Shown: piece after piece, positions 18,393 to 20,018 of the stretch
Numbering within the stretch: the stretch's first letter is position 1
Layout: the number at the start of each line of letters is the position of its first letter
Virus record (IMG/VR): IMGVR_UViG_3300044716_000918
Coordinates: 1 to 22,625 of that record
Length of the DNA stretch: 22,625 nucleotides
Origin: a virus
Reading direction: 5' to 3' (one strand)
Notes under the pieces: generated by a model
Database searches by the model: none
Told to the model about the DNA's origin: nothing
The model's input: only the letters and a program-made list of their open reading frames with translations
Program-made: the position numbers and the translations under genes

Positions 18393-18809
18393 CTACCGAG
18401 GCCCCGGCCGACCCCTACGAATGTCCGGATTGCAGTCGGTCCGGAAGGCGAGGCAGCCGGTAATGCGCCACCCGGTCGCGCTGGCCGGGTCTCGCACCTG
18501 CACCGTCGCCGCATAGGCGTCCGGGAGGCACGCGATATCGGCCGTCGCGGTCGCGCCTGCGTCGATGGGGGCGATACCACGGCGACACACTTCGAAGCTC
18601 GCGCCGGGGCCGCCGTTGTAGTCGCCCAGCGTGTGGTCCCACAGCACAACGCGGTAGTCGCCAGTGCCCCCGTGGTTCTTGACCGTCACCGTGTAGGTCA
18701 GGCCGGAGACCGAGAACCGCTCGACCGTGAGATTCGGAGGACCGCTGGGCCCCGTGGCGCGGTCGCAGGCGGCGAGAGCAACGGCAGCGATGACGGCGGT
18801 GTGACGCAT
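18393..18809 (-). CDS. Leftward Ig-like lipoprotein, possible lysogenic-conversion gene
   Basis: 138 aa. The N-terminus (MRHTAVIAAVALAAC) is a short lipoprotein signal with lipidated Cys15. The mature protein begins DRATGPSGPP and continues with LTYTVTVKNHGGTGDYRVVLWDHTL, a single Ig/CARDB-like beta domain, plus four further Cys that could form disulfides. Third positions are mostly G or C, supporting coding. A weak AAGG site lies before the ATG. It reads against the flanking late genes, next to the repressor, the place where phages often carry genes expressed in the lysogen. Surface lipoproteins of this kind can block receptors or alter the host envelope. No specific family is recognised. 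Confidence 0.65.
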   Translation of the reverse strand: MRHTAVIAAVALAACDRATGPSGPPNLTVERFSVSGLTYTVTVKNHGGTGDYRVVLWDHTLGDYNGGPGASFEVCRRGIAPIDAGATATADIACLPDAYAATVQVRDPASATGWRITGCLAFRTDCNPDIRRGRPGPR

Positions 18810-18848: not shown

Positions 18849-19028
18849 ATGCGCCGCCTGTGCGACCTGCCGGGCGGCGGTGCGATCTGCGAGGGCGACG
18901 ACGGCCGACGCTGGCTGGTCATCCCTCTGCCTGCCGGCGTCCTCGAGTCGGCGGCCGAGGCGTGCCCGCCGCCGTCAGCGCCGCCGCCTCCTCTGGACCC
19001 TCCCTTGCCGCTGCGGCTGGTGCGCTGA
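18849..19028 (+). CDS. Small ORF antisense to the repressor 3' end
   Basis: 59 aa. It starts in the 109-bp gap between the two leftward genes and its last 110 bases overlap the repressor gene antisense. Nearly every codon ends in G or C, and the beginning (MRRLCDLPGGGAICEGDDGRRWLVIP) reads like a small folded domain with two Cys; the rest is proline-rich and less informative. There is no clear Shine-Dalgarno, though an AT-rich stretch precedes it. It may be a chance frame, because antisense frames of GC-rich genes are often open. Confidence 0.3.
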   Translation: MRRLCDLPGGGAICEGDDGRRWLVIPLPAGVLESAAEACPPPSAPPPPLDPPLPLRLVR

Positions 19029-19338
19029 CCGACAACATCGGGTCGCCCAGTCGGCGCCGGGCGTCGTGCACCACGTCGGCCACCGTGCGGCTGACCCGCT
19101 CAGCCGCGTCCAGCATCCCGAAGGCGTGCGCGTGCTCGGCGTCTCGCATCGGCGAATGCTTGGCCGCCCACGCCTCAAGGTCCGAGACGGCTTCGGTCGG
19201 GATCCGACCCTTCTCGTAGCCGTTCCACGTCTGCCGCGAGACGCCATTCTCGGCGCCAGCGTCCTCCTGGCTGATGTCGCGCCATGCCCGGGCGACCCGC
19301 AGCCGCGCTGCCAGCGTTGACAAGATGTCGGCTGTCAT
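18919..19338 (-). CDS. XRE-family repressor (CI-like)
   Basis: 139 aa from the ATG at 19338. An XRE helix-turn-helix lies at residues 10-60, with the core SQEDAGAENGVSRQTWNGYEKGRI at 23-46. The rest is a helical segment (AHAFGMLDAAERVSRTVADVV) and a Pro/Ala-rich C-terminus. There is no S24/LexA-like peptidase domain, so SOS-type self-cleavage is unlikely and induction would need an antirepressor or other signal. It is transcribed away from the early operon, as expected for a lysogeny repressor. A composite inverted-repeat motif covers its start codon (19319-19344), consistent with autoregulation. A longer start (19398) would add 20 residues without domain support. Confidence 0.8.
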   Translation of the reverse strand: MTADILSTLAARLRVARAWRDISQEDAGAENGVSRQTWNGYEKGRIPTEAVSDLEAWAAKHSPMRDAEHAHAFGMLDAAERVSRTVADVVHDARRRLGDPMLSVSAPAAAAREGPEEAAALTAAGTPRPPTRGRRQAEG

Positions 19339-19344
19339 GCGACA
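19319..19344 (+). promoter_or_regulatory. Composite operator, copy A (at repressor start)
   Basis: The plus strand reads GACA-N3-TGTC-N3-TGTC-N4-GACA. The repressor ATG (minus strand, 19338-19336) lies inside it. The same 26-bp geometry appears in opposite orientation at 19718-19743. Both also contain TTGACAA, 2 nt, TGTCGGC (19317-19332 and 19731-19746). Binding here would shut off the repressor's own expression; that is inferred. Confidence 0.55.
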
Positions 19345-19717
19345 TTCCGTCCGACGGTGGGGCGCTCGTACCGGCACCGGCCACGTGAAGCACGCCACGT
19401 GGCGAATCCTCGGGGGTGAAGGTGTCGCGGGGCAGAGTACCCAAATCCGGGCAACGCAGGCGTGCGACCCGGTCCGGCAGTCCCCGCATCACCGGCAGGA
19501 CGGCGCCTGTACCGGCGTCGAGAGCGGCCAGCTTGGGCGGATCCTGCTGACGACAGGTCACCGACGAAGCCCGCCGCCACGGCACTCGCGTGTATCAGCG
19601 GTCGAGATTCCCGGGTTACTGCCGGGTAAACGCTCGTCATGTCCCCTCCGGAGCCGGCCTCGTCCCCCGGCTTGGTTGCCCCGACGCCTCGGGGCAGCAC
19701 GGCGGGGACTCGCATTT
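19345..19717. other. Intergenic control region without a convincing gene
   Basis: This 373-bp stretch lies between the two composite operators. Codon patterns are mixed in all frames. A leftward frame ending at 19335 reads into the repressor start with an ATGA overlap, which is how neighbours are coupled here, and could be a gene of about 101 aa from 19640 (MTSVYPAVTRESRPLIHASAV...). Its third positions are not clearly GC-rich, so I do not call it. CCGGGTTA/CCGGGTAA is repeated near 19609-19628. It may hold the repressor promoter, an RNA or an attachment site. Confidence 0.4.
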
Positions 19718-19743
19718 TGTCGGGCGACACTTGACAAACTGTC
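19718..19743 (-). promoter_or_regulatory. Composite operator, copy B (early promoter)
   Basis: The minus strand reads GACA-N3-TGTC-N3-TGTC-N4-GACA, the mirror-oriented partner of 19319-19344. It covers the TTGACA at 19731-19736. On the plus strand this includes TGTCGGGCGACA (19718-19729) and GACA-N3-TGTC (19733-19743). A repressor bound here would cover the -35 element of the rightward early operon. Confidence 0.55.
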
Positions 19744-19758
19744 GGCATGTGTGAATCT
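19731..19758 (+). promoter_or_regulatory. Candidate early promoter (PR-like)
   Basis: TTGACA at 19731-19736, a 16-nt spacer, and GAATCT at 19753-19758 preceded by TG at 19750-19751 (extended -10 style). The -10 is poor. It lies about 50 bp before the first early gene at 19806, whose ATG has no obvious Shine-Dalgarno, so a short leader is likely. Confidence 0.4.
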
Positions 19759-19770
19759 TGGTGTCAGCCG

Positions 19771-19787
19771 CCCGACGCGGTGTCGGG
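19771..19787. repeat. Inverted repeat in the early leader
   Basis: CCCGAC (19771-19776) pairs with GTCGGG (19782-19787) around 5 nt. It contains TGTC at 19781-19784, a half-site of the composite operators, and may be an extra binding site or an mRNA hairpin. Confidence 0.35.
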
Positions 19788-19805
19788 CCACCCAACGATA
19801 CCACA

Positions 19806-20018
19806 ATGCGCGAACAGCGACAGGAACCCTACTGCACCTTCACCGAAGCCGCGACGCTCATTGGCGTCACGCGCCAGACGGTGCACGAGTGGGCCAAGGC
19901 CGGCCGCATCCGGACCCGCGAGGTCGCGGGGCGCCGAGTGCTTTACCGCCGACAGGTCCAGCAAGTGGCCGCAGAACGCCGAGCGGCAATTCTGGCCTCC
20001 CTCCCGGTGGCGTCATGA
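19806..20018 (+). CDS. Excisionase/MerR-like helix-turn-helix protein
   Basis: 70 aa. The winged-helix-type DNA-binding domain spans residues 11-52: TFTEAATLIGVTRQTVHEWAKAGRIRTREVAGRRVLYRRQVQQ, which has the 'teAA.llGvsr.tv..w.k.GrI....v.gr..y...dv' pattern of the HTH_17/MerR-like family. In phages such small proteins are excisionases or Cro-like early regulators. No integrase is in the window, so a Cro-like role beside the repressor is as likely as excision. ATG at 19806 follows the divergent region and composite operator B. Its stop overlaps the next ATG. Confidence 0.75.
   Translation: MREQRQEPYCTFTEAATLIGVTRQTVHEWAKAGRIRTREVAGRRVLYRRQVQQVAAERRAAILASLPVAS

Follow-up and report, generated by a model that had tools for sequence, protein, structure and literature searches.

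The window analysed here is the whole viral record, 22,625 bases with a G+C content of 72%, whose genes run from a P22-type capsid through tail and lysis genes to a leftward helix-turn-helix (HTH) repressor gene, followed by a rightward HTH_17 gene and then small early genes. The repressor matched Pfam HTH_31 (3.6e-8), and its best PHROG was phrog_2328, 'transcriptional repressor' (4.2e-8, residues 7-60 against positions 14-66 of 128 in the profile). The C-terminal S24 peptidase domain that marks LexA/CI-type, SOS-cleaved repressors did not appear among its Pfam matches at E 0.01, an ssrA-like C-terminal tag is absent (the protein ends in RRQAEG, with no AA-type end), no related solved structure was found by sequence, and the predicted structure was too poor for use (mean pLDDT 56). 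The excisionase/Cro-like product of the first rightward gene matched Pfam HTH_17 (1.7e-8) and phrog_66, 'excisionase and transcriptional regulator' (1.1e-7), and phmmer matched it to structures 6ama and 6amk, which we take to be BldC-DNA complexes. For integrase, no PF00589 or PF00239 match was detected in the contig, which may be incomplete. Directly downstream of the repressor gene, on the same strand, lies a lipoprotein-like ORF (18393-18809, minus strand) with a signal peptide containing LAAC, which could be expressed from the prophage.

The two divergent regulatory genes are separated by a control region (Table 1) that we consider noncoding because its longest ORF shows no codon-position signal. 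This 137-aa ORF (19335-19748, minus strand) was rejected as a gene, having flat codon-position G+C (0.72/0.69/0.65) and a log-odds of -0.46, in contrast to the major capsid gene (0.67/0.49/0.96 and +0.63).

Table 1. Features of the repressor/HTH_17 locus, in window coordinates
Feature	Position	Strand	Remarks
139-aa helix-turn-helix repressor	18919-19338	-	Start codon CAT 19336-19338
Control region between divergent genes	19339-19805		467 bp, noncoding
Composite site A, GACAAGATGTCGGCTGTCATGCGACA	19319-19344	+	Repressor codons 1-7 and 6 bases upstream
Site A outward dyad, TGACA-N10-TGTCA	19318-19337		5-bp arms, interleaved with the inward dyad
Site A inward dyad, ATGTCG-N9-CGACAT	19325-19345		6-bp arms, centre 19335, beside the start codon
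Composite site B, GACAGTTTGTCAAGTGTCGCCCGACA (minus strand)	19718-19743	-	From pattern search and look-elsewhere test
Site B inward dyad, TTTGTC-N11-GACAAA	19716-19738		6-bp arms
Site B outward dyad, CGACA-N10-TGTCG	19725-19744		5-bp arms
TTGACA, possible early-promoter -35	19731-19736	+	Perfect hexamer inside site B
Inverted repeat, GCCCGAC-N5-GTCGGGC	19770-19788		HTH_17 gene leader, perfect 7-bp arms, one further TGTC
70-aa HTH_17 protein, excisionase/Cro-like	19806-20018	+	First gene of the rightward block

Within this locus the pattern GACA-N3-TGTC-N3-TGTC-N4-GACA occurs twice, once on each strand, as the original prediction had stated: both copies, sites A and B, match at all 16 fixed bases with identical spacing, and their spacer bases differ. 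The concern that the motif might be frequent elsewhere in the genome was not borne out, as the 22,625-base contig holds no other exact match. A third match (19326-19351, minus strand) has two mismatches and overlaps site A, and shuffles gave a mean of 0.17 matches with three mismatches allowed. The pairs GACA-N3-TGTC, TGTC-N4-GACA, TGTC-N11-GACA and GACA-N10-TGTC are each confined to sites A and B within the window. Because the pattern had originally been chosen by eye, with the caution that chance deserved testing, we ran a look-elsewhere test covering all non-palindromic 4-mers at all spacings up to 26 bp in 1000 dinucleotide shuffles. In the real window the A/B pattern was the only recurring signed four-element arrangement of any 4-mer. 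Among the shuffles, recurrence was seen in 64 of 1000 for any word, in 4 of 1000 for any word within 600 bp, and in none of 1000 for words no commoner than TGTC/GACA, while single TGTC/GACA quadruples numbered two against 0.016 expected per shuffle.

Since part of site A is coding sequence, we also resampled the first repressor codons with the phage codon usage. Three in-gene half-sites in register were obtained with P 0.003, a value that is somewhat too small because the third-position G+C of the repressor (0.81) is below that of the structural genes. The early repressor codons inside the motif include the rare ACA (1.3% of Thr), TTG (6.6% of Leu) and TCA (1.9% of Ser), and codon choice at site A is selection-like. 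Chance is a very unlikely explanation of sites A and B.

The internal structure of the sites differs from that first proposed. Each had been described as an outward pair joined to an inward pair, as adjacent short palindromes, but the extended symmetry belongs to the long interleaved pairs: it continues past the four fixed bases in all four of these dyads, whereas the symmetry of the short abutting pairs never extends outward and extends inward in a single case. For this reason we prefer to parse the sites as interleaved dyads with a core of 18-19 bp, with the reservation that there are only two sites to judge from. The claim that the copies face each other has likewise to be given up, as it relied on the internal palindromes; the flanks of both carry TTGACAAnnTGTCGG in the same plus-strand orientation (19317 and 19731), so the modules of A and B swap order, not direction. 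Both sites also contain a direct repeat spaced by 7 bp (TGTCGGCTGTC and GACACTTGACA). Their centres are 399 bp apart, close to 38 turns at 10.5 bp, to which we give no weight because the helical repeat is too uncertain. RNA structure at the sites was rejected and DNA sites were favoured over RNA elements, since no significant RNA hairpin was found at the sites (z -0.6 and -0.4).

As originally predicted, one copy, site A, covers the repressor start codon. The other was said to cover the early -35, and here the outcome was mixed. Site B does contain TTGACA, 69 bp upstream of the divergent HTH_17 gene (the hexamer occurs twice on the plus strand of the window, once per site), but the promoter scan at the early promoter returned no acceptable -10, the best-placed being AATCTT (19754-19759), a poor match, and the promoter consensus is weak. 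The inverted repeat in the HTH_17 gene leader has TGTCGGGC in common with site B and is a possible auxiliary site.

No relative spanning the switch locus was found in our searches. The repressor, the HTH_17 protein and two neighbouring proteins had no relatives among viral contigs, the repressor had none among bacterial genomes, phages or plasmids, and the HTH_17 protein had none among phages. For the major capsid protein there were two close relatives (93% identity; L027 and L028), both on contigs that stop before the switch, and none in bacterial genomes; an alignment search with it yielded 80 distant relatives, and in the 25 longer records among these the repressor was absent and no convincing motif match was present. 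The 16-base pattern itself occurred in 23 of 2.9 million viral contigs, in about ten independent groups, compared with 6 for a scrambled-word control, which is no clear general enrichment. None of the 23 held a convincing relative of the window repressor or HTH_17 gene, and these occurrences in unrelated groups say little about the window phage.

Some of these contigs show features of their own. In one unrelated phage group (L005, L015, L016, L018, L024 and L025; 63-69% G+C) the 16-base composite is kept between two large ORFs with varying spacers, where it could act as a promoter or in processing; in L018 the flanking ORFs (741 and 342 aa) have a portal- and scaffold-like look, with no Pfam match. 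In two phages of 68% G+C whose flanks differ (L004, 869-894, and L010, 6608-6633) the composite has small ORFs of weak HTH character beside it and continues into TTGACA, and in L008, L006/L009/L012/L026 and L017 it is surrounded by dense runs of TGTC/GACA repeats. A text search of the literature found no published motif of the A/B form.

Because both non-random sites fall in the control region between the divergent repressor and HTH_17 genes, with no further copy in 22.6 kb, they are most likely the paired operators of a lysogeny switch. More specifically we propose, with a probability of roughly 0.6, that they serve a temperate-phage immunity switch as its two operators, bound by the repressor, which would block the early promoter at B and regulate its own gene at A. 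The repressor would recognise TGTCG-type half-sites in both. At B, binding would block a rightward early promoter whose candidate -35 lies inside the site, so that the HTH_17 gene and the genes behind it would be shut off. At A, sitting on its own start codon, the repressor may limit its own expression by blocking either elongation or a nearby promoter. Two interleaved dyads per site would suit two dimers or one tetramer.

Several other explanations were weighed against this one. We give very little credence to a coincidence in which part of site A merely codes for MTADILS and site B is similar by chance: three half-sites of A do lie in codons, the pattern was first found by eye and it occurs in other viruses (23 contigs against 6 for the control), but the shuffles and the codon resampling both speak against it, and the two copies sit in the sole place where operators are expected. 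That both proteins read the sites, one interleaved dyad each, with direct competition at every site, is unlikely. Every site does offer one inward and one outward dyad with extended arms, and in lambda-type switches two proteins share operators; set against this, all the dyads are built on the TGTC half-site, so a single protein is sufficient to explain them. Quite unlikely too is a dual-code version in which the inward dyad would be read by the repressor and the outward one by the excisionase/Cro-like protein, with A and B looped over 399 bp.

It is also doubtful that the HTH_17 protein is the main binder, coating tandem half-sites head to tail and repressing the repressor gene during lytic growth. 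The matches to 6ama and 6amk point in this direction, as do the encoding of an HTH_17 relative beside the sites and the short direct repeats in both, since BldC occupies direct repeats as head-to-tail multimers (PMC5859096). The BldC repeats, however, are AT-rich and take up 9 bp per subunit (PMC5859096), rather than the 7 bp and dyad-symmetric TGTC half-sites seen here, and the dyad symmetry of the extended arms is stronger than the direct repeat and suits a symmetric dimer. The immunity switch, which we prefer, has points against it as well, namely that no relative spanning the region turned up in our searches, the lack of a good -10 at B and certain departures from known switches, to which we now turn.

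Mycobacteriophage Hope, like BPs, is a cluster G phage. Its gp33 falls in phrog_2328 (residues 1-124 match, 3e-41), and the window repressor is 35% identical to it over 65 aa (E 2e-6), in an alignment confined to the HTH domain, which weighs against an immunity switch of this kind; Hope gp34 is also an HTH_17 protein, with a match below the cut-off. The window resembles BPs and Hope in having a small HTH repressor that lacks a cleavage domain and is encoded divergently from an HTH_17 protein, and two composite operators, putative in the window, with GACA/TGTC-type half-sites, one at the early promoter and the other at the repressor gene. The gp33 protein of BPs recognises composite operators, each made up of two half-sites, one of them CGACATATGTCG, with OR at the PR early promoter and ORep near gene 33, and its authors weighed looping between the two without reaching a decision (PMC4557955). 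Using the text description in PMC4557955 we assigned ORep-like stretches in Hope (GQ303261; L114) at 1820-1831 and 1840-1851, 8 bases apart and with 8 and 7 conserved positions, the former overlapping the repressor start codon (1823-1825). The placing of an operator on the repressor start codon is therefore probably not new, and because of the paired operators of BPs and the ORep overlap in Hope, the A/B layout appears to have precedent, its pairing in the one and its start-codon placement in the other.

The differences are also clear. The half-site order is - + - + in BPs and - + + - in the window, CGACAT and ATGTCG abut in BPs whereas site A has ATGTCG-N9-CGACAT, and the 12-bp BPs palindrome (CGACA-N2-TGTCG) occurs zero times in the window; both the order and this absence count against the immunity switch. 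The integration-dependent immunity of BPs has an integrase gene adjoining the repressor gene, attP within the latter and an ssrA-like degradation tag at the C terminus of the long repressor form; there is no integrase beside the window repressor, and the repressor/HTH_17 gap is about 173 bp in Hope compared with 467 bp here. We liken the putative switch to that of BPs in its working and do not assign it as a BPs-type member, because the match is HTH-only, the palindrome is absent, no integrase was detected in the contig and the repressor has no AA-type end.

UmaThurman, Purky, QuinnAvery, Sneeze and Shipwreck likewise carry a repressor gene and an HTH_17/MerR-like excise gene in divergent orientation. 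In the actinophages examined the whole repressor-to-excise gap is roughly 50-265 bp, whereas about 380 bp already separate site B from the repressor gene, a distance that again counts against our reading. The lambda CI/Cro operators lie between divergent repressor and early genes, as the window sites do; unlike in lambda, these are 399 bp apart with one over the repressor start codon, and no S24 cleavage domain is reported in the repressor. The RcoLS20 switch of pLS20 likewise has an Xre-family regulator and two operators, one overlapping the promoters and one distant, with motifs in both orientations (PMC4207663). It differs in its motif (CAGTGAAA), in the 75 bp between operators and in controlling plasmid conjugation (PMC4207663), and its DNA looping would be hypothetical for the window sites. 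None of the switches compared shows the - + + - operator grammar, and with the pairing and start-codon placement precedented, this grammar and its possible dual reading are the modestly interesting part. If our reading is correct, a phage lineage without known relatives at this locus would join the small set of paired-composite-operator switches, adding to them a site on the repressor start codon and a short half-site grammar, open to direct test, for a repressor with kinship to a family known chiefly from mycobacteriophages, while the general picture of such switches would stay as it is.
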